Shown: one piece after another, positions 6,616 through 18,210 of the stretch
Numbering within the stretch: position 1 is the stretch's first letter
Layout of the letters: each line of letters opens with the position of its first letter
Source: Dokdonella sp.
Lineage (GTDB): Bacteria; Pseudomonadota; Gammaproteobacteria; Xanthomonadales; Rhodanobacteraceae
Assembly (NCBI GenBank): GCA_019634795.1
Contig: JAHCAR010000016.1
Span: 1-64,000, forward strand
DNA: 64,000 nucleotides
Direction of reading: 5' to 3'
Made by a program: the position numbers and the translations under genes
The notes under the pieces: generated by a model
What the model was told of the DNA's origin: nothing
Databases searched by the model: none
The model's input: the letters and a program-made list of their open reading frames with translations, nothing else

Positions 6616-9408
6616 TCAGCGGAACTTGTATTCGAGGCTCAGGTAATAGGAGCGGCCGCGCGGATCGGTGTAGGTCGGGTCGTAGCTGGCCAGGAAGTAG
6701 TAGGACTGATTCGAGAAAGGCGGCGCGCGGTTGAACAGGTTCAGCACGCCGGCGCGAATACGGAACTTCTCGCTCGCCGTCCAGCTCGTGCTGAGGTCCC
6801 ACAGCGAATACGGTTTGACCTTGTGCTCGGGCAGCAGCGAGTCGGTGACCGGGTCGTAGGTGTTGTTCTGGTCGCGGTAGCCGGACGAATAGGTGTTGGC
6901 CAGGGTCACGCCGAACGGGCCCTTGTCCCAGCTGAAGGCGATGCGGTGCCGCCAGCGCTGGATGACCTGTTCATTGAGGAACACGCCGAGATTGTTGCGG
7001 TACGGCTCGAGCGGTCCGAACTGGCGCTTGTACTCGAGAACATAGGTACTGGTCGCGGTGAAGCCGAAGCGGCCGTAGTCTCCTTCCTCGCTGCGCAGGG
7101 TCGTGCTGAGATCGATGCCCGAGGTCTTCAGGCGACCCTGGTTTTCCTTCTGCAGGAGGATGTTGGTGATGAAGCCATCCTCGTCGCGCTCGATGTAGGT
7201 GCCGTTGTAGCGGTCCGGGTTCTCGACGATGATCTGTTCGCCGAGGGTGCTGATCACGTCCTTCTTGAGGATGTTCCAGTAGTCGACGCCGACGTTCCAG
7301 GCCTGGTTAGGTTCGTAGACCACGCCGAGCGAGAACTGGCGCGACTTCTCCGGCTTCAGGTCCGGGTTGCTGCGCCGTTCGACCGGCCATTGGTCGGTGC
7401 AGTAGTCGATGCTGCCCTCGACATCGACGCATTGCGGGTCAGTGAGGAAGCTCGAGGTCGTTCCGAAGGTGGTCGGCCTGCTCAGGTCGCTGATCGACGG
7501 GGCGCGGAAGCCGGTGCCGGCGGATCCGCGCACGAGCAGGTCCTCGCGCGGCTGCCAGCGCAGGCCGATCTTCGGATTGACCGTGGAACCGACGCCGCTG
7601 TAGCGGTCGTAGCGCAGCGCGGCCTGCATTTCGAGGGTCGAGGTGAACGGCGCATTGAGCTCGACATAGGCCGAAGCAATGTTGCGTCCGTCGCGGGTGG
7701 CGACGAGGTCGGTGGAGGATCCGACGCCGGCGCCGTTGTCGCGATCGCCGGCGATGTTGTTGCTGACCAGCAGGTCCGAGGGCGTGAAGTCCTGGGTCTC
7801 GCGGCGGAACTCGCCGCCAACGGCAATGCCGAGGTCGCCGCCGCCGAGGCTGGCCAGCGAACGGGTCAGGCTGAAGTCGACGCCCTGGGTGATGCCCTTG
7901 GATTTGCGTGCCTCGTCATTGACCCTGATCGAATCGAGCAGGGCCAGGCCTTCGGCCGAGGAGGGTCCGAACGGATTGATGGTGCCATCGCGCACGCCGG
8001 CGTCGAACTGGTCGAACAGCACATAGCCGTCGACGTACTTGTCGACCGCGTCGTTCTGGCTGCGTGAAAGCGCCACTTCGTAGTCCCAGTTGCCGAGCAT
8101 GCCGTTGGCGCCGAAGACCAGGCGCTGGCCGGTACTGGTGACTTCGTTGGTGCGATTGCCGGCTTCGGTCATGCGGTAGCGGATGCCGCTGAAGGTCGAT
8201 GGCAGTCCCTCGGCGCTGAGCGCCGTGCGGTAGGGCTCGGGCAGGATCGAGACCGGCAGGTTGCGGATGCGTTGCGGGTTCGGGCTCAGGCGATAGGTGC
8301 TCTTGGCCTGGGCGTAGCTGACCTCGGCGAACAGGCGATGTTCGTCGTTGATCTTGAAGATGGCGCGGCCAAGGAAGGACACGCGGTCGGAGTCGGGATA
8401 GAGCTCGGTGTCCTCCATATAGTCGTAGCTGCAGGCGGTCGGGCCGCCCGGGCCTTCCGGCGCGTAGACGGTCGCCGGCGGGTTGCAGTCGGGCGAGCTC
8501 GGATTGATGCGGTTGCGGGTCGATCCGGCGGGCAGCAGGCCGGCCGCGATCAAGGCGTTGCGCTGGTCCGAATTGATGTCGATGTTGGCCGGGTAGGTAT
8601 TGCTCGACATCAGCGCCGGCAGGCGCTCGGCCAGCGGTCGCTTGCGGATGAACTCGCGCTGGCTGGAGCGCAAGGCGCCGAGGTGCTGCACGTCGAGCAC
8701 GCCGAACACGTTGTAGTGATCGCTCTCGAGGTTGCCGGTGCCGGCACTGATCGAGAAGGTCTGCTTGTCGGCGCCGCCTTCGTCGGTGTCGGCCGCAGAA
8801 GCAGAGAGATCGATGCCCTGGTAGTCGCTGCGGGTGATGAAGTTGATGACGCCACCGATCGCATCGGTGCCGTAGATCGCCGAGGCACCGTCCTTGAGGA
8901 CTTCGACGCGCTGGATGGCAGCGGCCGGAATGTTGTTGAGGTCGACGCCGGCGTTGTCTCCGGGTGAGGCGAAGTTGGCCAGGCGCCGGCCATTGAGCAG
9001 GATCAGCGTGCTCGAGACGCCGATGCCGCGCAGGTTGGCGCCATTGAAACCGCGCTGGCCCGAGGTGCCGTCGGTGATGCTGGCACCGTCGGTCAGCGGC
9101 GCGGTGTTCGCGCTCAGCGTGCGCACGAGTTCGGCCGCGGTGGTCACGCCGCGCTTGGAAATCTCCTCGCGCGTGATGACCTCGACCGGAAGCGCGGTTT
9201 CGCCATCGACGCGCTTGATGCGCGAGCCGGTCACGACGATCTTGTCCATCGTGGTGACGGCCTTGTCGCCGGCGGCGGCTTCCGTGCCGGATTCGTCCTG
9301 GGCCAGGGCAGGCAGTGCCGCCAGCGCTGCGGCGATGCAGGCGCCGAGCACACTGGCCCGGCGCAGGAGCTGCCGGCGATGTGCGGCGCGCGATTGTCCA
9401 GATTTCAT
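6616..9408 (-). CDS. TonB-dependent outer membrane receptor
   Basis: About 930 residues. A signal peptide with an arginine-rich start (residues 1-36, cleaved near ALA-Q) precedes a plug domain (IVVTGSRI, TLILLNGRRL, VEVLKDGASAIYGTDAIGGVINFIT) and a 22-strand-type barrel ending in aromatic YYLSLEYKFR. ATG 9408 has a purine-rich Shine-Dalgarno (GGGGGGAA) just upstream; an in-frame ATG 30 bases earlier lacks one. Receptors of this kind import iron complexes, sugars, peptides or polymers with TonB energy. It is divergent from the cyanophycinase operon, so uptake of cyanophycin fragments is a reasonable guess, but no substrate can be read from the sequence. Confidence 0.9.
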   Translation of the reverse strand: MKSGQSRAAHRRQLLRRASVLGACIAAALAALPALAQDESGTEAAAGDKAVTTMDKIVVTGSRIKRVDGETALPVEVITREEISKRGVTTAAELVRTLSANTAPLTDGASITDGTSGQRGFNGANLRGIGVSSTLILLNGRRLANFASPGDNAGVDLNNIPAAAIQRVEVLKDGASAIYGTDAIGGVINFITRSDYQGIDLSASAADTDEGGADKQTFSISAGTGNLESDHYNVFGVLDVQHLGALRSSQREFIRKRPLAERLPALMSSNTYPANIDINSDQRNALIAAGLLPAGSTRNRINPSSPDCNPPATVYAPEGPGGPTACSYDYMEDTELYPDSDRVSFLGRAIFKINDEHRLFAEVSYAQAKSTYRLSPNPQRIRNLPVSILPEPYRTALSAEGLPSTFSGIRYRMTEAGNRTNEVTSTGQRLVFGANGMLGNWDYEVALSRSQNDAVDKYVDGYVLFDQFDAGVRDGTINPFGPSSAEGLALLDSIRVNDEARKSKGITQGVDFSLTRSLASLGGGDLGIAVGGEFRRETQDFTPSDLLVSNNIAGDRDNGAGVGSSTDLVATRDGRNIASAYVELNAPFTSTLEMQAALRYDRYSGVGSTVNPKIGLRWQPREDLLVRGSAGTGFRAPSISDLSRPTTFGTTSSFLTDPQCVDVEGSIDYCTDQWPVERRSNPDLKPEKSRQFSLGVVYEPNQAWNVGVDYWNILKKDVISTLGEQIIVENPDRYNGTYIERDEDGFITNILLQKENQGRLKTSGIDLSTTLRSEEGDYGRFGFTATSTYVLEYKRQFGPLEPYRNNLGVFLNEQVIQRWRHRIAFSWDKGPFGVTLANTYSSGYRDQNNTYDPVTDSLLPEHKVKPYSLWDLSTSWTASEKFRIRAGVLNLFNRAPPFSNQSYYFLASYDPTYTDPRGRSYYLSLEYKFR

Positions 9409-9713
9409 TCGATTCCCCCCGAAGATGATGTTTGGCATTGGCTCGGCAGCGCACGCAAGGAGCGCGATGCCCGTGCCGGTGAGCGGCGCCCGGACTCTAC
9501 GTCCCGTGCGCGGCGCCGGGGCCGGTCACGGATGCCTGGGGTCGCCTCGGCACAACTTGCTGTCGCATTACTGAAAACAGGCGGCCGCGCGGGCCTTGCA
9601 GCAATGCGACATGGACTTGCCGGATTGGCGCCGCGCCGACGACGCAGGCGTACGCCTCTTGGCCGGCAGTGGCATGCTCGTCGCCTGTAACGTTCGCGGG
9701 GCTGCCCAAGACG
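9409..9713. other. Divergent intergenic region, TonB receptor / cyanophycinase
   Basis: About 305 bases separate two outward-reading genes and must hold both promoters. I see no convincing sigma-70 pair or open reading frame with coding character. GC-rich inverted stretches occur near 9486-9530. It is the natural place for an ArgR-type regulator to bind, but no operator was recognised. Confidence 0.5.
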
Positions 9714-10979
9714 ATGAATCGCGCGCTTCTCCATCTGGCCGTGTGCCTGCTTGCCCTGCTGCCGGCCTGCGCCGGCGCGACCGGGTCCGTCCCTGCCGCT
9801 GGCCGCGGCTACGTGGTTCCAATCGGGGGTGCGCTCGACTACGACAACCCCGTGGTCTGGTCGCGCCTGGTCGCCCTCGCCGGCGGCAGGTCGGCCCGCT
9901 TCGCGGTGCTGGCGACGGCGTCCGAAGATCCAGAATCGGCCGCGGCGCGAACCATCGCCGCCTTGCGCAAGCAGGGCGCACAGGCCGAGTTCATCGCCGT
10001 AGCGCCGCTGCTCGACGGCAGCGACAGTGCGCGCGAGGCGCGCAATCCGGAGTGGGTGGACAAGGTCGCCGCGGCCACGGCCGTCTACTTCACCGGCGGC
10101 GCCCAGGAGCGCATCGTCGACACCCTGCTGCCGGACGGCAAGCCGACCCCGCTGCTCGATGCGATCCGCGCCTTGTATCGCCGGGGTGGAGTCGTCGCCG
10201 GCACCTCGGCCGGCGCGGCGGTGATGAGCGAGGTGATGTTTCGCGATGCGCAGGACGTGCTCAAGGTCCTGCAGGGATCGATGCGTGTCGGCCACGAGAT
10301 CGATCGCGGCCTCGGCTTCCTCGATGCCGATGTTCTGGTCGACCAGCACTTCCTGCGCCGCGGGCGCATCGGACGCCTGCTGCCGCTGATGCAGGCGCGC
10401 GGGATCCGGTTCGGGCTCGGCGTCGACGAAAACACCGCGGCGATCGTGCATGACGGCTCGGTCGAGGTGGTCGGCGCCAGCAGCGTCCTCATCGTCGACC
10501 TGGCGGGAGCCGCGAGCGACAAGGCGGCCGGTGCCTTCAATATCGAGGGGGCGATGCTCAGCCTGCTCGGCAACGGCGATCGCATGCAGCTGCGCAGCGC
10601 CGAAGTCACGCCGTCGGCAGCCAAGCACGCGGGCACCCGCATCGATCCGAATGGACCGGGCTACAAGCCGTATCATGCGGCCGTGATGTTCTATCCGGAC
10701 TTTCTTGGTGATCGCACCCTGGCCACGGCCATGGGACGCCTGCTCGACAGTCCGCAGCGCGAGCTGCGCGGTCTTGCGTTCGCGCCGGTGAACAATGCCG
10801 GGGATGGCGCCGATGCGCCTGGTTTCGAATTTCGCCTTGCCAAGACCGGCCGCACCGTGGGCTGGCTCAGCACGGCCGCCGGCGGCGAGGACTACACAAT
10901 CACCGGCATGCGCCTGGACGTCGAGCCGGTGCGCATGGCCGCGCCGCTGTACCGGCCTTGGCGACCGTCCACGCCATGA
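9714..10979 (+). CDS. cphE: Exported cyanophycinase (peptidase S51, CphE type)
   Basis: A 421-residue protein that should cut cyanophycin (multi-L-arginyl-poly-L-aspartate) into beta-Asp-Arg dipeptides. The serine nucleophile is Ser165 in GTSAG; TGGAQER and VDQHFLRRGRIGRL match cyanophycinase substrate-site motifs, although the usual GGDQ is GGAQ here. The N-terminus is a secretion signal (hydrophobic residues 4-16). LPAC at 16-19 could be a weak lipobox, or signal peptidase I could cut after AGA at 22, so the enzyme is extracytoplasmic as in secreted CphE. ATG 9714 is chosen because the signal peptide begins there. Its stop overlaps the next gene (ATGA), tying it to arginine/dipeptide uptake. 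Confidence 0.9.
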   Translation: MNRALLHLAVCLLALLPACAGATGSVPAAGRGYVVPIGGALDYDNPVVWSRLVALAGGRSARFAVLATASEDPESAAARTIAALRKQGAQAEFIAVAPLLDGSDSAREARNPEWVDKVAAATAVYFTGGAQERIVDTLLPDGKPTPLLDAIRALYRRGGVVAGTSAGAAVMSEVMFRDAQDVLKVLQGSMRVGHEIDRGLGFLDADVLVDQHFLRRGRIGRLLPLMQARGIRFGLGVDENTAAIVHDGSVEVVGASSVLIVDLAGAASDKAAGAFNIEGAMLSLLGNGDRMQLRSAEVTPSAAKHAGTRIDPNGPGYKPYHAAVMFYPDFLGDRTLATAMGRLLDSPQRELRGLAFAPVNNAGDGADAPGFEFRLAKTGRTVGWLSTAAGGEDYTITGMRLDVEPVRMAAPLYRPWRPSTP

Positions 10980-12505
10980 TCATCCGTGGCTCGCGTCTGG
11001 TCGGGTGGCGCAGGCTGCTGCCTTGCCTGCTTGCCTGCCTGTCCGGGACTGCCATGCCGGTCCTCGCTCGGGCCGCACTGCCGGATCCGGTCCGGATCGG
11101 CGTGGAAGGTGCCTATCCGCCCTTCAGCGAAGTCGGGCCGGACGGCGAATTGAAGGGTTTCGACATCGACATCGCGCGTGCGCTGTGCGCGCAGATGCGC
11201 GTTCGTTGCGTGCTCGTGCAGCAGAATTTCGACGGCATGATCCCGGCGCTCAATGCGAACAAGATCGATGCCGTGATCGCATCGCTTTCGATTACCGAAG
11301 AACGCCGCAAATCGGTCGATTTCACCGACAAGTACTACAAGACGCCCGGACGCCTCGTCGCCCGCCGCGACGCGGCCCTTCGGCCGACACCGGACGGGCT
11401 GGCAGGGCGGCGCATCGGCGTGCAAAGGGCCAGCACCTACGACCGCTACGCGACCGATACCTTCGCGCGCAGCGAGATCGTCCGCTACGCCAAGCTGGAC
11501 GATGTCTTCCTCGACCTTGCCGCGGGTCGCATCGATGCCGCGTTCGCCGATTCGGTGGCCAGCTACGTCGGTTTCCTGCGCCAGCCAGGCGGTGATGCCT
11601 ATGCCTTCGTCGGGCCGGATTTCATCGAGCCGCGCTATTTCGGCAATGGCGCGGGCATCGCCGTGCGCAAGGGCGACACGGCCCTGCGCGATGCGCTGAA
11701 CGCGGCGATCGCGGCGATCCGCGCGAACGGCACCTACGCGGCGATCCAGTCGCGCTACGTCGATTTCGACCTCTACGTCGACGCCAGCCCGGCAGCGGCG
11801 GCTTCGGCCGGGCCCCTGCACGGCTACGCCCGCAGCCTGCTGCAAGGGGCTTGGGTGACCCTGTCGCTGGCCCTGCTTTCGTTGCTGCTCGCGCTGGTCC
11901 TCGCCCTGCTCGGGGCGAGCGCCAAGCTGTCCCGTTCGGCCTGGCTGCGCGCCATCGCCCAGGCCTACACCACCGCGGTCCGCTCGGTGCCCGATCTGGT
12001 CCTGATGCTGCTCGTGTTCTTCGGTGGCCAGGCCCTGGTCAACGCCCTGGCCCTGCGCCTTGGCTACGCTCGGGGGCCGGACATCGACCCGTTCGTCGCC
12101 GGCGTGCTGACGATCGGCTTCATCTACGGCGCCTACCTGACCGAGACCTTCCGCGGCGCCTTCCTCAGCGTGCCGGCCGGCCAGCGCGAGGCCGCATTGG
12201 CCTTCGGCATGAGCCCCTGGCTGAGCTTCCGGCGCATCGTCGGCCCGCAGATGCTGCGCCACGCGCTGCCGCCGCTGCTCAACAACTGGTTGGTTCTGCT
12301 CAAGAGCACGGCGATCGTCTCCGTGATCGGACTGACCGACCTGATGCAGCGCGCCGGTCTCGCTGCCGGCGCGACCCACCAGCCGTTCCTGTTCTACGCC
12401 GCCGTCGGCGGACTCTACCTCGGCTTCACCGCCTGTTCGGAAGCCGCCTTCGGCTGGCTTTCGCGGCGCCTCGACGTCGGCACGCGGCGGGCGGTGTATC
12501 GATGA
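10976..12505 (+). CDS. aotJQ: Arg/Asp-Arg ABC transporter: binding protein fused to permease
   Basis: A 509-residue fusion. After a signal peptide (about 1-35), residues about 40-265 form a family-3 amino-acid binding domain (VRIGVEGAYPPF, GELKGFDIDIARALC, IASLSITEERRKSVDFT). Residues about 285-505 form a HisQ/ArtQ-type permease with the EAA loop (REAALAFGMSPWLSFRRIVGP). In Pseudomonas these are separate AotJ and AotQ. The fusion would fix the binding domain to the outer face of the membrane. The ATG overlaps the cyanophycinase stop (ATGA). Substrate by context: arginine and probably beta-Asp-Arg. Confidence 0.88.
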   Translation: MIIRGSRLVGWRRLLPCLLACLSGTAMPVLARAALPDPVRIGVEGAYPPFSEVGPDGELKGFDIDIARALCAQMRVRCVLVQQNFDGMIPALNANKIDAVIASLSITEERRKSVDFTDKYYKTPGRLVARRDAALRPTPDGLAGRRIGVQRASTYDRYATDTFARSEIVRYAKLDDVFLDLAAGRIDAAFADSVASYVGFLRQPGGDAYAFVGPDFIEPRYFGNGAGIAVRKGDTALRDALNAAIAAIRANGTYAAIQSRYVDFDLYVDASPAAAASAGPLHGYARSLLQGAWVTLSLALLSLLLALVLALLGASAKLSRSAWLRAIAQAYTTAVRSVPDLVLMLLVFFGGQALVNALALRLGYARGPDIDPFVAGVLTIGFIYGAYLTETFRGAFLSVPAGQREAALAFGMSPWLSFRRIVGPQMLRHALPPLLNNWLVLLKSTAIVSVIGLTDLMQRAGLAAGATHQPFLFYAAVGGLYLGFTACSEAAFGWLSRRLDVGTRRAVYR

Positions 12506-13203
12506 ACGCGCAAGCCCTGATCGACAGCCTGCCGCTGTATGCGAGCGGATTGTGGACGACCCTGCGCCTGTTGCTGGCCTCGCTGCTGATCGGCGGCTGC
12601 CTGGCGCTGCCGCTCGCCGTCCTGCGCTGCCTGCCTACGCCCTGGCTGCAGGCGCCGGTGCGCGCATTCACCTATGTGATCCGCGGTACGCCGATGCTGG
12701 TCCAGCTGTTCCTGCTCTACTACGGACTGGCCCAGTTCGAGTTCGTCCGCGACAGCGTGCTCTGGCCGGTCCTCAGTTCGGCCTGGTTCTGCGCGATCGC
12801 CGCGTTTGCGATCAACAGTTGTGCCTACACGACGGAAATGCTGGCCGGAGCGATCCGCGCATTGCCGTTTGGCGAAATCGAGGCGGCGCAGGCCTTCGGC
12901 ATGTCGCGCGCCCAACTGATGCGCCGCATCGTCCTGCCCGCTGCCATGCGCCACTGCCTGCCCGCCTATGGCAACGAGGTCGTCATGATCCTGCATGGCA
13001 CCTCGCTGGCCAGCGTGGTCACCCTGATGGATCTGACCGGGGCGGCGCGCGAAACGAACGCTCGCTACTACCTGCCGTTCGAGGCGTTCATCGCCGCGGC
13101 GGCAATCTATTTCCTGCTCACCTTTATCCTCGTCTCGGCATTTCGCGCCGCGGAGAGGCGATGGCTGGCCCCGCTGCGGCGCGATGCCGTGAACATTGGC
13201 TGA
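12502..13203 (+). CDS. aotM: Arginine/dipeptide ABC transporter permease (AotM-like)
   Basis: A 233-residue HisM/ArtM-type inner membrane permease. The EAA-loop motif (IEAAQAFGMSRAQLMRRIVLP) that docks to the ATPase is clear, as is the family phrase VIRGTPMLVQLFLLYYG. Several hydrophobic helices are visible. The start is fixed by the ATGA overlap with aotJQ; the same frame stays open far upstream, but that part only shadows aotJQ. It pairs with the fused AotQ domain to form the membrane channel. Confidence 0.9.
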   Translation: MNAQALIDSLPLYASGLWTTLRLLLASLLIGGCLALPLAVLRCLPTPWLQAPVRAFTYVIRGTPMLVQLFLLYYGLAQFEFVRDSVLWPVLSSAWFCAIAAFAINSCAYTTEMLAGAIRALPFGEIEAAQAFGMSRAQLMRRIVLPAAMRHCLPAYGNEVVMILHGTSLASVVTLMDLTGAARETNARYYLPFEAFIAAAAIYFLLTFILVSAFRAAERRWLAPLRRDAVNIG

Positions 13204-13213
13204 CGAAGAATCC

Positions 13214-14344
13214 ATGCGAACCGAACGACATCCACTCACCGCCGCGTCTCCCGGCACGCAGCGCGAGCTGCACAGCCTGCATTTCGGCCAGGCAGGGGCA
13301 GGGCGCAAGGCCGTGATCCAGGCCTCGCTGCACGCCGATGAACCGCCGGGGATGCTGGTCGCCCATCACCTGCGCGGCCTGCTCGCCGATCTCGAAGTAA
13401 GCAATCGCATCGATGGCGAAATCGTGCTGGTGCCGATGGCCAACCCGATCGGACTCGGCCAGCGCGTGCTCGGCAGGACGCTTGGCCGCTTCGCCCTTGC
13501 CGACGGCGAAAATTTCAACCGGCACTATGCCGACCTGAGCCGGCGCGCCGCGGAACTTCTCGGCGGCGAAGGATTCCCGACTTCGACCATCGACGTGAGC
13601 AGTGCGCGCCGGGCGTTGCAGCGTGCCTGCCAGGAACTGCCGGCGACCAGCGAGCTTCTGAGCCTGCGCCGGATCCTGCTCGGCCTTGCCATCGATGCCG
13701 ACCTCGTGCTCGACCTGCACTGCGACAACGAAGCGGTGATGCACCTGTATACGGCGACCTCGCTGTGGTCGCGCGTCGAGCCGCTGGCGCGCCTGCTCGG
13801 AGCGCGCGCGAGCTTGCTGGCCGACGAATCGGGCGACGATCCCTACGATGAGGCCTGTTCGACGGTCTGGCGACGCCTGAATGGACACCTGCGCGAGCGG
13901 AGCCCGGACGCCACGCTGCTTCCGGATGCCTGCGTGGCCGTGACCGTCGAATTGCGCGGCGAAGCCGACGTCAGCCATGACCTCGCGGCGTCCGATGCGC
14001 GCGCCCTGGTCGACTATCTGGTCCTTGAGGGATTCATCAACATGCCGGTCCCGGAGCTGCCGCCGCTGCTGGCCGGGGCGACCCCGCTGGCGGGCTCGCT
14101 GCCGGTCGTCGCCTTGGTCAGCGGCGTGCTCGTGTTCGTGCGCGCGCCGGGCGACCTGCTGCGCCGGGGTGAGCACGTCGCCGACGTCATCGATCCGCTG
14201 AGCGGTTCGGTCACTGCGCTGGCCAGTCCCGCCGACGGGCTGATGTACGCGCGCGAGAGCGGTCGCACGGTGCAGGCCGGCATGAGCGTGGCCAAGGTCG
14301 CCGGCAGCGAGGCGGTGCGTGCGGGCAGGCTGTTGTCGGCATGA
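13214..14344 (+). CDS. aotO: Cyanophycin dipeptide hydrolase (CphZ/AotO family)
   Basis: A 376-residue zinc hydrolase of the succinylglutamate desuccinylase/aspartoacylase superfamily. Zinc ligands are visible as H40-x-x-E43 (SLHADEPPG) and H169 (LDLHCDN); the catalytic Glu is probably in TVELRGE near 246. In Pseudomonas the gene at this place in the aot operon, aotO, encodes CphZ, which splits beta-Asp-Arg into Asp and Arg. Position between permease and ATPase genes supports that identity over AstE. I chose ATG 13214, preceded by GAAGAA; TTG 13196 is an in-frame alternative overlapping aotM. The product would act in the cytoplasm on imported dipeptide. Confidence 0.85.
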
Positions 14345-15135
14345 CGATCGCAACGACGGAGAGTGGCGTGGAACCGGTGCTCGCGGTGGAAAACCTGCAC
14401 AAGCATTTCGGCGGTCGCGAGGTGCTGAAGGGCGTCTCGCTGAGTGCGCGTCGCGGCGACGTCATCACCCTGGTCGGTTCGAGCGGTTCGGGAAAGAGCA
14501 CCTTCCTGCGTTGCCTGAACCTGCTCGAACAGCCCGACCAGGGCCGCCTGCGGCTCGGCGGCGAAGAGCTGATGCTACGACCGGACCGGGATGGCAGCCT
14601 GACCGCCGTTGACAAACGGCAGTTGCGTCGCTGGCGTTCGCGCCTGGCCATGGTGTTCCAGTCCTTCAACCTCTGGCAACATCTGAGCGTGCTCGAAAAT
14701 GTCACCGAGGCGCCCATCCATGTCCTCGGCCAGGCGCCGGACCGGGCCAGGGAGCAGGCGTGCAAGCTGCTCGAACGCGTCGGTGTCGGCCATCGCCGCG
14801 ATGTCTATCCGGCGCAACTGTCCGGTGGCGAGCAGCAGCGCGTGGCGATCGCCCGTGCGCTCGCCATCGAGCCCGAAGTCATGCTGTTCGACGAACCGAC
14901 CTCGGCGCTCGACCCCGAGCGCGTCGGCGAAGTGCTGGCGGTCATGCGCGAGCTCGCCGAAGAGGGGCGGACGATGATCCTGGTCACCCATGAAATGGCG
15001 TTTGCCCGCGAGGTTTCGAGCCACGTCATCTTCCTGCACCAGGGCGTGATCGAGGAGCAGGGACCGCCGCGTGAGGTGCTCGATACCCCGCGCAGCGACC
15101 GGCTGCGCCAGTTCCTCGGCAGCGGTCTCAAGTAG
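14341..15135 (+). CDS. aotP: Arginine/dipeptide ABC transporter ATPase (AotP-like)
   Basis: A 264-residue HisP/GlnQ-type ATPase. Walker A is GSSGSGKST at about residues 45-53, the ABC signature [15 protein letters not shown] near 160, and Walker [15 protein letters not shown] near 180. It powers the AotJQ-AotM importer. The start overlaps the aotO stop (ATGA), and argR follows after 14 bases. Confidence 0.92.
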
Positions 15136-15149
15136 GACGGCCCGGTCCG

Positions 15150-16178
15150 ATGGCGCATCTGCCGCAGGTATTCGGATTCATCCTGCAGGATGCGTTCTCA
15201 CCGCTGGCCCTGGCCGGCGCGATCGAGGCGCTGCAGGCGGCCAACCATGTGCTCGGACAGGCCGCCTACCGCATTGCGATCCTTCCTGGGGGCGGCGCCG
15301 ACCTCGCGGCGAATTCGGTCGCAACGCTGTTTCGCCCGATGGCGGCAGAGGAAGCGGACCCGCTGGCTGGTTTGTTCGTGGTTGCCGGGCGGCTGCCGGC
15401 GCCCGGCGATCCATCGCTGGCGTCGACCGTGAAGCTGCTGTCGCGCGTGGCGGCACGCCATGGCACGGTGGGCGGCATCGGCGCCGGTGCCGGCTGGCTG
15501 GCCCATGCCGGATTGCTGCGCGGGCATCGCTGCACGCTGGATTCGAACCAGGCCCAGCTTCTCGCCGAACAGTTTCCGGAATGCATCGTCTCGAGCAATC
15601 TCTACGAGCTCGATCGCACGCGCGCCACCTGCGCCGGGCATACGGCCAGCCTCGACATGATGATCGCCTGGCTCGGGCAGCGCCATGGCGAGCGCATCGT
15701 GCATGATCTGCTGGTCTGCCTCGGCCTCGAGCGCCTGCGTCCCGCGAGCCAGCGCCAGCGCGCCGCGGCCGCAGCACGGCCGAGTATGCCGACCAAGCTG
15801 GGCGAGGCCATGAGCCTGATGGAGAACAATATCGGCGAGCCCCTCTCGACCGAGGAAATCGCGAACCTGGTCGGCGTTTCGCGGCGCCAGCTCGAACGCC
15901 TGTTCAAGCAGCATCTCGATGCGCTGCCCTCGCGCTGGTACCTCGAGAAGCGCCTGCACCGGGCGCGTGGCATGCTCAAGCTCGGCACCCAGTCGATCCT
16001 GCAGGTCGGACTCAGCTGCGGCTTTTCTTCCGGCGCTCATTTTTCCAATGCCTACCGCGCCTATTTCAACCGCACGCCGCGCGACGAACGCAGCGCCCGG
16101 GCCGTCGAATGGCGCGCCTCCCCCGGCGATCGCGCGAGCTCGCTTGCGGACGGAGAAACACCCGAGGACCCATCATGA
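15150..16178 (+). CDS. argR: ArgR-type AraC family transcriptional regulator
   Basis: A 342-residue regulator with an N-terminal DJ-1/PfpI (GATase1-like) sensor domain (residues about 5-190) and a C-terminal double helix-turn-helix of the AraC type (residues about 215-320; LSTEEIANLVGVSRRQLERLFK and GLSCGFSSGAHFSNAYRAYF). In Pseudomonas the last gene of the aot operon is argR, an arginine-responsive activator of aot and aru genes and of this same architecture. Its position here between transport and catabolic genes fits a local activator responding to arginine. No operator was recognised upstream. It is not related to the small hexameric ArgR of E. coli. Confidence 0.85.
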   Translation: MAHLPQVFGFILQDAFSPLALAGAIEALQAANHVLGQAAYRIAILPGGGADLAANSVATLFRPMAAEEADPLAGLFVVAGRLPAPGDPSLASTVKLLSRVAARHGTVGGIGAGAGWLAHAGLLRGHRCTLDSNQAQLLAEQFPECIVSSNLYELDRTRATCAGHTASLDMMIAWLGQRHGERIVHDLLVCLGLERLRPASQRQRAAAAARPSMPTKLGEAMSLMENNIGEPLSTEEIANLVGVSRRQLERLFKQHLDALPSRWYLEKRLHRARGMLKLGTQSILQVGLSCGFSSGAHFSNAYRAYFNRTPRDERSARAVEWRASPGDRASSLADGETPEDPS

Positions 16179-17254
16179 CCGAAACGCCGCGAAAGCCATC
16201 GACACGCTTCCTGCTGAGGCCCTGTCTCGCCGAAGACCTGTCCGTGATGGAAAACTTCGCCGAGGCCAGCGCGCACGGCCTGACCACACTGCCGTGTGAT
16301 CGCGCGGCGCTGGCCGATCGCATCGAACGATCGCTGCAGTCGTTTTCGACGGAAGACGTCAGTGGCGAGGAAATCTATCTTTTCGTGGTCGAGGATTGCG
16401 CGACCGGCGAAGTCGTCGGCACCAGCGGCATTGCCGCCCGAGCCGGATTCTCCGACCGCTTCTACAGCTATCGCAACGAGTTCGTCGTCCATCGCAGCCA
16501 GGCGCTCGGTGCCAGCAACCGCATACACACCCTGCATCTGTGCCACGACCTGACCGGCTTCACCCTGCTGACCTCGTTCTATGTCGATCCGCGCTACGAA
16601 GATTCGCTGGCCGCGCAGTTGCTTTCACGGGCGCGACTGCTCTTCATCGCGGCGCATGCGGATCGCTTTTCCGACCGGATCGCCGCGGAAAGCCCGGGCC
16701 TGGCCGATGCGAGCGGTCGCTGCCCGTTCTGGGATGCCGTCGGGCGACGCTTCTTCGGCATGAACTATCCGGCCGTGGAGCGGCTTTCCGGCGGGCGCAG
16801 CAAGGCCTTCATCGCCGAGTTGATGCCGCCTTCGCCGGTCTACGTGCCCTTGCTGCCCGAGGAAGCGCAGTGGGCGATCGGGCAACTGCACCCGGTCGCC
16901 GAGTTGCCGTTTTCGATCCTGATCGATGAAGGATTCGACGCCGAGACCTATGTCGACATCTTCGATGGCGGCCCGACCGTGCAGGAGCGCGTCGGCATGC
17001 TCAAGACGGTAGGCCGGTCGCGCACGCTGCGGGTCGAGACATCTGCCGCCAGTGCCTCGCTGGCAAATTCGGCGAACGGACTGTACATCGTCGCCGTGCC
17101 GGCCCTGGCGGGCTTTCGTGCCAGCATCCTGTCGGCGGCCGCGAGCGACAGCGCGATCAGGCTCGGTGCGGAAGCGGCACATCAGCTCGGCACAACCAGG
17201 GGCGATCTGGTCCAGGTCGCTGCGTTCGACGGCGTGGGAGGCGGATCACGATGA
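16175..17254 (+). CDS. aruF: Arginine N-succinyltransferase subunit (AruF/AstA family)
   Basis: A 359-residue AstA-family GNAT-like enzyme. It should transfer succinyl from succinyl-CoA to arginine, the first step of the AST arginine degradation route. Family phrases are present: FYSYRNEFVVHRSQ, SNRIHTLHLCHDLTG, GRCPFWDAVGRRFFGMNY, KAFIAELMP and YVDIFDGGPT. ATG 16175 overlaps the argR stop (ATGA). Pseudomonas uses a two-subunit enzyme, AruF/AruG, and a second AstA-like gene follows here. The remaining ast/aru genes are not in the window. Confidence 0.88.
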   Translation: MTETPRKPSTRFLLRPCLAEDLSVMENFAEASAHGLTTLPCDRAALADRIERSLQSFSTEDVSGEEIYLFVVEDCATGEVVGTSGIAARAGFSDRFYSYRNEFVVHRSQALGASNRIHTLHLCHDLTGFTLLTSFYVDPRYEDSLAAQLLSRARLLFIAAHADRFSDRIAAESPGLADASGRCPFWDAVGRRFFGMNYPAVERLSGGRSKAFIAELMPPSPVYVPLLPEEAQWAIGQLHPVAELPFSILIDEGFDAETYVDIFDGGPTVQERVGMLKTVGRSRTLRVETSAASASLANSANGLYIVAVPALAGFRASILSAAASDSAIRLGAEAAHQLGTTRGDLVQVAAFDGVGGGSR

Positions 17255-18210
17255 GCATCTGGCATCTGCATCGAACCAGCGATCCTGGCCGGGCCGGCGA
17301 GGTCGATACGGCCGCGTCCGACCACCTGTTTGCGTTGGATGACCTGTCCGCGCCGGGGGCCGACAGCCTCCGGCTCGGCACGCTGCGCCTGCGCCGGCGC
17401 ATCGGCATGAGCCTGCCGCGCTATTGGTACCACGTCGGCGAGGTCGTGCATTCGGCGCCGACCCTGGACCTGTTCCGGCGCGAAAAGGTCCTGCTGCTCG
17501 GCAACGACTTCACTGCGGCCTCCGAGCTGGCCGACATCCGGGTCGAGGCCGCCGGGTGCCCGCCGGGCAGGCGCATGGAGATACTCGAGGCGCTGATTCG
17601 CGCTGGCCTGCTCCTGCTCGATGCCGTCCCCGGCGCAAGCAACGATTCGAGCGAGGATGACCGGCGCGTGATCGTCGAATTGCCCGGCGTGCGCAGGATC
17701 AATGGCGCATCACCGTTCTGGGAAGGCCTGGGCGGCTTCTTCCACGATGCCGACCCGGACGACGGCGAGCGTGAATACGGGCCGGCCTGGCGCAGCCATG
17801 TGGCTGCGCTGTTGCCGCGACATCCGGTGGTGGTATCGCTGTTGCGATCCTCAGCGCGCGAGGCCGTCGGCGAGGTCGGCGAATCGGCGCTTGCGCTTCG
17901 CGACGCACTGCTGGCGCAGGGCTTCGGGCCGAGCCGCCATGTCGGCATCATCGATGGCGGACCGGTCTATTGCAGCGAGCGGCGCTTCCGCCAGGCGGCG
18001 AGGAACTGCACGCTCGTTGCTGCCACGGCAGGCCGGCAGGCCGAAACCGCGCAATCGTGGCTGCTCAGGCCCGATCATGGTGACGAGGTCTGGTGCCTGC
18101 CTGGTCAAGACCAGGGCGGCAGCATCGCACTCGCTGCGGCTGTCTTCGAGCGCTGCGGGCTGGCCGCCGGCGGTACGGCGGCGGTCCTGCCTTGGAACCG
18201 GTGCCATTAG
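17251..18210 (+). CDS. aruG: Divergent second arginine N-succinyltransferase subunit (AruG-like)
   Basis: A 319-residue protein related to the preceding gene but strongly diverged. The C-terminal AstA signatures remain (INGASPFWEGLGGFFHD, RHVGIIDGGPVY), whereas the N-terminal acyltransferase half is hard to align by eye (it retains PRYWYHVGEVVHSAP). The ATG overlaps aruF (ATGA), consistent with equal production of two subunits of one complex. A purely structural or regulatory role for this subunit is possible. Confidence 0.7.
   Translation: MSIWHLHRTSDPGRAGEVDTAASDHLFALDDLSAPGADSLRLGTLRLRRRIGMSLPRYWYHVGEVVHSAPTLDLFRREKVLLLGNDFTAASELADIRVEAAGCPPGRRMEILEALIRAGLLLLDAVPGASNDSSEDDRRVIVELPGVRRINGASPFWEGLGGFFHDADPDDGEREYGPAWRSHVAALLPRHPVVVSLLRSSAREAVGEVGESALALRDALLAQGFGPSRHVGIIDGGPVYCSERRFRQAARNCTLVAATAGRQAETAQSWLLRPDHGDEVWCLPGQDQGGSIALAAAVFERCGLAAGGTAAVLPWNRCH

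Follow-up and report, generated by a model that had tools for sequence, protein, structure and literature searches.

We report a locus in Dokdonella sp. that probably serves to scavenge cyanophycin released by other cells, or beta-Asp-Arg, under the control of the regulator ArgR and with the assistance of a TonB-dependent receptor. It lies within a stretch of 64,000 nt (assembly GCA_019634795.1, contig JAHCAR010000016.1, positions 1–64,000, plus strand), hereafter the window, and combines an operon of eight plus-strand genes (9714–18210), led by a predicted exported cyanophycinase, with the divergently oriented receptor gene. Cyanophycin is an arginine–aspartate nitrogen store; it is large and is released when cyanobacteria lyse. 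We know of no route by which it passes the outer membrane of Gram-negative scavengers.

The operon is nearly devoid of intergenic space, each named gene lying in its assigned place and on its assigned strand (Table 1). ATGA overlaps occur at five of the seven junctions (cphE/aotJQ, aotJQ/aotM, cphZ/aotP, argR/astA1 and astA1/astA2), and gaps of 10 bp (aotM/cphZ) and 14 bp (aotP/argR) at the remaining two, which makes a single transcript likely. A previous sequence-only reading of this DNA had listed a cyanophycinase, an Aot-type importer, an AotO hydrolase, an ArgR-type regulator and two AstA proteins, and family scans bore out every one of them. The set that marks an aot operon—binding protein, two permeases, ATPase, AotO and ArgR—is present within this one operon.

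We compared the locus across six genomes, namely the window's own (G000) and those carrying the loci L003, L067, L068, L069 and L070, with ~20 kb examined at each of the other five loci. The six loci share kinship, so that counts across them are not independent, and family models were applied to part of the reading frames in the fetched loci. L003, from a Steroidobacteraceae metagenome-assembled genome, was recovered with CphE as the query over one-genome-per-species contigs, a search that finds close relatives only and in which one of 30 candidate stretches was confirmed. Its gene order is an OPT carrier and a TonB-dependent receptor (both on the minus strand), followed by cphE, cphZ, argR and astA1 (plus strand). 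The receptor is the best conserved protein between L003 and the window (69% identity), ahead of AstA1 (66%), CphZ (56%), CphE (55%) and ArgR (52%). Receptor orthologues of 69–73% identity face argR-astA in L003 and L067–L070, giving the same arrangement in all six loci. Since the receptor is so well conserved and its arrangement recurs, the divergent gene at 6616–9438 can be counted as part of the locus, and the comparison suggests that it is a core component; its true start may lie downstream, at the ATG at 9408. The earlier description of the operon as a full outside-to-inside pathway was right in gene content and left out this conserved receptor.

Receptor and operon likely share ArgR as a regulator. 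The argR product scored 233 bits against the GbdR model NF052371, under its cut-off of 480. According to PMC10963909, the ARG box of Pseudomonas ArgR reads TGTCGCN6GNAA and forms tandem pairs whose members lie 5 bp apart, the spacing being variable in P. alloputida. Scanning with a looser form of this Pseudomonas consensus, TGTCGCN8AA, placed 10 of the 18 matches of the six loci in the receptor/operon gaps, which make up 2.4 of 164.9 kb (binomial p 1.7e-14, with loci related and matches not independent). When tandem pairs spaced by 5 bp were counted over the six loci, nine fell inside and six outside the gaps at up to three total mismatches, and five inside and one outside at up to two. Each of the six gaps holds at least one tandem box at the former threshold, compared with a mean of 0.03 and a maximum of 1 in 500 Markov shuffles of the gaps. 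The tandem box of the window is the sole one in its 64 kb, and L070 carries a perfect pair. A further exact box, on the minus strand and nearer the operon, is found in 6/6 gaps. Among the 13 other CphZ loci introduced below, six were scanned for a tandem box and had none. The boxes in the shared gaps make joint control of receptor and operon by ArgR likely, lending weight to the regulatory role previously assigned to this protein. Consensus and 5-bp spacing are those of the Pseudomonas ArgR regulon as given in PMC10963909, with the box in the window sitting between a TonB-dependent receptor and a cyanophycin operon.

The first gene product, CphE, is a member of family S51, with 45.5 bits to PF03575 (cut-off 23.9) and 154.6 bits to TIGR02069 (cut-off 126.6). 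Residue inspection recovered the predicted Ser165 in GTSAG and the DQH motif, and showed the whole active site to be intact: Ser165 within GTSAGA, Asp210-Gln211-His212, Gln131, Glu239 and Arg216/218/221. Judged by eye, the N-terminus is hydrophobic and signal-like and includes a lipobox-like LPAC, with which both a free and a lipid-anchored form of the predicted exported protein would be compatible. The residue set matches that listed for CphB and CphEal in PMC3235067. Compared by residue list with the extracellular CphEal of Pseudomonas alcaligenes DIP1, whose gene measures 1260 bp against 1266 for cphE, CphE shares the Ser-His-Glu triad, the Gln and three pocket Arg, and its signal-like N-terminus may correspond to the signal sequence of CphEal; ahead of the catalytic His it has Gln211, as in CphB, whereas CphEal has Thr (PMC3235067).

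The fourth gene product has the AstE/AspA fold (PF24827) and aligns over residues 12–374 of 382 with PDB entries 8ein and 8eip (E 2e-70 and 1.3e-69), the next structure, 3fmc, following at 1e-16. The PDB title of both entries is succinylglutamate desuccinylase; we take them to be CphZ structures. Four residues, H40, E43, H169 and E246, are invariant in 18 of 18 homologues and presumably represent the zinc ligands and catalytic Glu of CphZ. This near full-length match agrees with the identity as an AotO dipeptidase claimed earlier and, together with the intact CphE site, lends support to the proposed use of cyanophycin or beta-Asp-Arg. L070 lacks a detectable cphZ in the stretch examined; directly behind its receptor lies IadA (TIGR01975, 382.8 bits, cut-off 331.25), by its sequence an unrelated isoaspartyl dipeptidase for the reaction of CphZ. 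The fold family and the shared operon with AstA could instead suggest a desuccinylase acting on the AstA product rather than a beta-Asp-Arg dipeptidase. The distance between 2e-70 and 1e-16 in the structure matches, the substitution of IadA in L070 and the lack of any NCBIfam match, and hence of one to an AstE model, leave this the least probable of the alternatives we considered; on the structure matches and the IadA swap we rejected it.

Beyond the six loci, CphZ keeps varied company. It is present in 14 of 369 genomes of the class, and the 13 stretches other than the window's (13–20 kb long, some ended by contig ends) gave no tblastn match at 1e-8 when searched with cphE and the receptor, and none at 1e-5 with the S51 sequences from L067 and L068; CphZ alone is therefore no predictor of a cyanophycinase or of the receptor. 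An ATP-binding cassette (ABC) set lies near cphZ in four of the 13 (L048, L050, L054 and L056), and a binding protein alone in L049. In a tree with unresolved inner forks and with L049 and L054 on long branches, the window CphZ falls in a clade with L003 and L067–L069 (support 97/95), L049 and the aot-type L048 coming next.

In the window, an ABC importer of the Gram-negative basic-amino-acid type accompanies these enzymes. The genes of this importer had been named correctly; what had escaped attention is that the solute-binding protein and the HisQ-type permease are fused in a single frame (10976–12505). L050, considered as a second such fusion, has stops between the two parts and encodes them as separate genes. 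The binding domain is closest to lysine/arginine/ornithine (LAO)-binding proteins, and in the alignment most of the residues that we take to be ligand contacts in LAO-type proteins are kept, with Asp replaced by Glu once and Ser by Ala once. Because these contacts are mostly kept, the binding protein may take free arginine rather than beta-Asp-Arg. The earlier reading treated the importer as central; outside the window, none of the other loci gave a match to it. Inner-membrane carriers were seen in four of the six loci and are of three unrelated kinds: ABC (window), OPT (L003) and YfcC (L067, L068). The stretches of L069 and L070 yielded no YfcC or OPT homologue, nor any carrier among the subset of frames given to Pfam.

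The cyanophycinase position varies as well. CphE of L003 scores 136.2 bits, above the TIGR02069 cut-off. In L067, L068 and L069, cphZ comes first, ahead of argR-astA1-astA2. Further along in L068, and in the same orientation, come genes for an S51 protein of signal-like N-terminus and for YfcC; L067 has both genes, divergent from each other. The two S51 proteins are 59–61% identical to one another and retain GTSAG, D-T-H-F and the Arg, Gln and Glu residues; they perhaps form a separate cyanophycinase subfamily. The L067 protein had no match in a Pfam search at 0.001. Both are long, at 555 aa (L068:17154-18821) and up to 610 aa (L067:16437-18269), and both carry complete CphE-type motifs. A wide search with cphE matched 110 of 398 genomes of the order at E ≤ 1e-20; own genome aside, the best E was 2.6e-35 and identities were 32–42%, so we took these as other S51 types and not as orthologues.

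Which parts are constant bears on an alternative: a general uptake and modification locus for arginine, other basic amino acids or Arg-peptides, in which the receptor takes Arg-peptides, arginine is both the signal for ArgR and the substrate of AstA, and the cyanophycinase is a late passenger. In its favor, the receptor, argR and astA1 are the most constant elements (6/6 loci), followed by astA2 (5/6, not found in the L003 locus), while a cphE above the cyanophycinase cut-off occurs in only two of the six, and the binding protein matches those for lysine, arginine and ornithine. All six loci nevertheless encode either CphZ or IadA as isoaspartyl dipeptidase, and four encode an S51 enzyme of some kind; a plain arginine locus needs neither. 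We consider this alternative unlikely, and cyanophycin or beta-Asp-Arg the probable substrate of the locus.

The two AstA proteins are puzzling, since they would form an arginine succinyltransferase whose usual downstream enzymes are missing. AstA1 scores 389.9 bits with TIGR03245, under the cut-off of 458.8, and 369.3 bits with the subfamily model TIGR03243, over 284.35. AstA2 lies under all NCBIfam AstA cut-offs, is 38–44% identical to its counterparts in L067–L070 and evolves faster than AstA1. At the C-terminus, the AstA2 proteins of L068 (16384-17154) and L069 (15222-15974) stop short of those encoded in the window, L067 and L070. The own genome has two PF04958 matches, both in the operon, and the AstA family (E ≤ 1e-30) occurs in five of 398 genomes of the order, exactly the five that carry the receptor. 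A search for AstB drew a blank in all six locus genomes and picked up the E. coli and Caulobacter controls. AstD exceeded its cut-off in none of them (best score 265 against 579 bits; two of 14 controls over cut-off), and the best scorers are taken as other aldehyde dehydrogenases. Since the six genomes gave no AstB match and no AstD over its cut-off, the pairs, judged on gene content, do not feed or start the ordinary arginine succinyltransferase (AST) pathway. Our guesses for their role are ornithine as the acceptor, an undescribed hydrolase, or the trapping of imported arginine. The claim of a pathway that is complete down to arginine degradation is accordingly not supported by the search for AstB and AstD. 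A complete outside-to-inside route ending in AST would fit the gene content, the tight coupling and the J-Q-M-O-P-argR-F-G order of Pseudomonas aot/aru; with AstB matched in 0/6 genomes, AstD over its cut-off in 0/6, and the receptor left out of it, we regard it as very improbable.

With respect to scavenging or storage, the search for cphA was run as previously advised: its N-domain (PF18921) had no match in the own genome (85% complete), and none in the genome of L003 (G762) or in G363. The lack of a match makes scavenging, as had been proposed, the likely job of the locus in its own genome. A second S51 gene there (L061:8204-9016, contig 12), considered as a working CphB, was rejected as such: GIGAGA stands in place of GTSAGA, DQGG in place of DQHF, and the Glu has become Ala. 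At 148.5 bits it is over the TIGR02069 cut-off, it shows 42% identity to CphB of L072, and it is likely an inactive relative. Its lost Ser, His and Glu positions are consistent with a lost storage system. Completeness of the other genomes is 77% for G059, 99% for G021, 100% for G363 and 100% for G066 (7% contamination).

Several observations weigh against the scavenging interpretation. CphA is present in three of the six locus genomes (G066, G059 and G021), where the substrate could partly be the cell's own polymer; the locus is consequently not confined to non-producers. In L067 and L068 the S51 enzymes fall under the cyanophycinase cut-off (69.1 and 82.1, respectively, against 126.6 bits with TIGR02069), and a six-frame profile search found no S51 gene in the L069 and L070 stretches. 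The binding protein retains the free-amino-acid site of LAO-type proteins, AstA has no AstB or AstD to feed, and the ligand of the receptor is assigned purely from gene neighborhood.

We nonetheless favor an ArgR-controlled scavenging locus, which may work as follows. The receptor would concentrate cyanophycin pieces or beta-Asp-Arg across the outer membrane, and exported CphE, whose motifs are in place, would cut the polymer to beta-Asp-Arg. The ABC importer here, and OPT or YfcC in some relatives, could move the dipeptide or arginine over the inner membrane, where CphZ, as its family predicts, would split beta-Asp-Arg inside the cell. ArgR would switch receptor and operon together through the boxes in their shared promoter region, and the AstA pair might succinylate arginine, or a product thereof, for a use other than AST.

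The system resembles known ones in part. The aot operon of Pseudomonas with AotO/CphZ, treated by Sharon et al. (PNAS 2023, as cited in PMC10206079), reportedly runs binding protein, permeases, CphZ/AotO, ATPase and ArgR, and the window has what we take to be the same order as Pseudomonas aotJQMOP-argR, with aruFG further on. On this order, the ABC importer may have been retained in the locus of the window and exchanged in the others. Gene order and dipeptidase family are common to both; unlike Pseudomonas aot, the window starts with a predicted exported cyanophycinase, has a fused binding protein–permease and a divergent TonB-dependent receptor, and lacks detectable AstB and AstD. Cyanophycin-utilisation loci (Ben Hania et al. 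2017, via PMC10206079) and the CphZ family were already known; as described in PMC10206079, such loci cluster a cyanophycinase, an isoaspartyl dipeptidase and a transporter, and are typical of genomes without CphA. The window shows the same clustering and differs from that description in CphZ for IadA, in ArgR with ARG boxes, in the AstA pair and in the TonB-dependent receptor. In Citromicrobium sp. JLT1363, Tang et al. 2012 described a TonB-dependent transporter whose gene neighbors that of a cyanophycinase, and from this neighborhood proposed cyanophycin as a substrate of such transporters (PMC3400609). The sections of that article available to us draw no link to ArgR, CphZ or AstA, and the likeness to the window is one of gene neighborhood.

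Table 1 Features of the locus in the 64,000-nt window
Feature	Position	Strand	Size	Description and basis
TonB-dependent receptor	6616..9438	-	940 aa	Divergent from the operon; PF07715 and PF00593
Tandem ARG box	9540..9576	+		Two 16-bp half boxes, 5-bp spacer, mismatches 1 and 0; shared intergenic region
Single ARG box	9596..9611	-		Operon side of the intergenic region
cphE	9714..10979	+	421 aa	Exported cyanophycinase (export predicted); TIGR02069 and active-site residues
aotJ-aotQ fusion	10976..12505	+		ATG at 10976; PF00497 and PF00528 in one protein; LAO-binding protein match
aotM	12502..13203	+		HisM-type permease; family scans
cphZ/aotO	13214..14344	+		Predicted zinc beta-Asp-Arg dipeptidase; 8ein/8eip; ATG start picked by likeness to L003
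aotP	14341..15135	+		HisP-type ATPase; family scan
argR	15150..16178	+		AraC-family regulator, ArgR/GbdR type; PF12833; ARG boxes upstream
astA1	16175..17254	+		Arginine/ornithine succinyltransferase (AOST) alpha-like subunit; PF04958, 360.7 bits
astA2	17251..18210	+		Divergent AstA-family partner subunit; PF04958, 116.3 bits

Receptor orthologues were found in five of 398 genomes of the order (the own genome and four others, at 71–73%). A class-wide search returned the own genome only (1/239), and in the family of G066 three of nine genomes have the receptor, all three already among the known carriers. Because five other genomes of the same genus that we searched are without it, the locus appears to be patchily distributed and was probably transferred. 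More tentatively, and with confidence a shade below an even call, we propose that the receptor is a dedicated TonB-driven importer of cyanophycin oligomers or beta-Asp-Arg, switched by ArgR with the breakdown genes in a patchily inherited module that exchanges enzymes and carriers, and that the AstA pair performs an undescribed arginine step outside AST. New, as far as the literature searched shows, are a module in which receptor, ArgR boxes, CphZ or IadA, and AstA without AstB or AstD are conserved together, as well as the exchange of its parts. For the passage of cyanophycin into Gram-negative scavengers, the locus names one candidate receptor together with a regulator and its putative operator sites, and it reveals which parts of such a system were kept and which were swapped in evolution.

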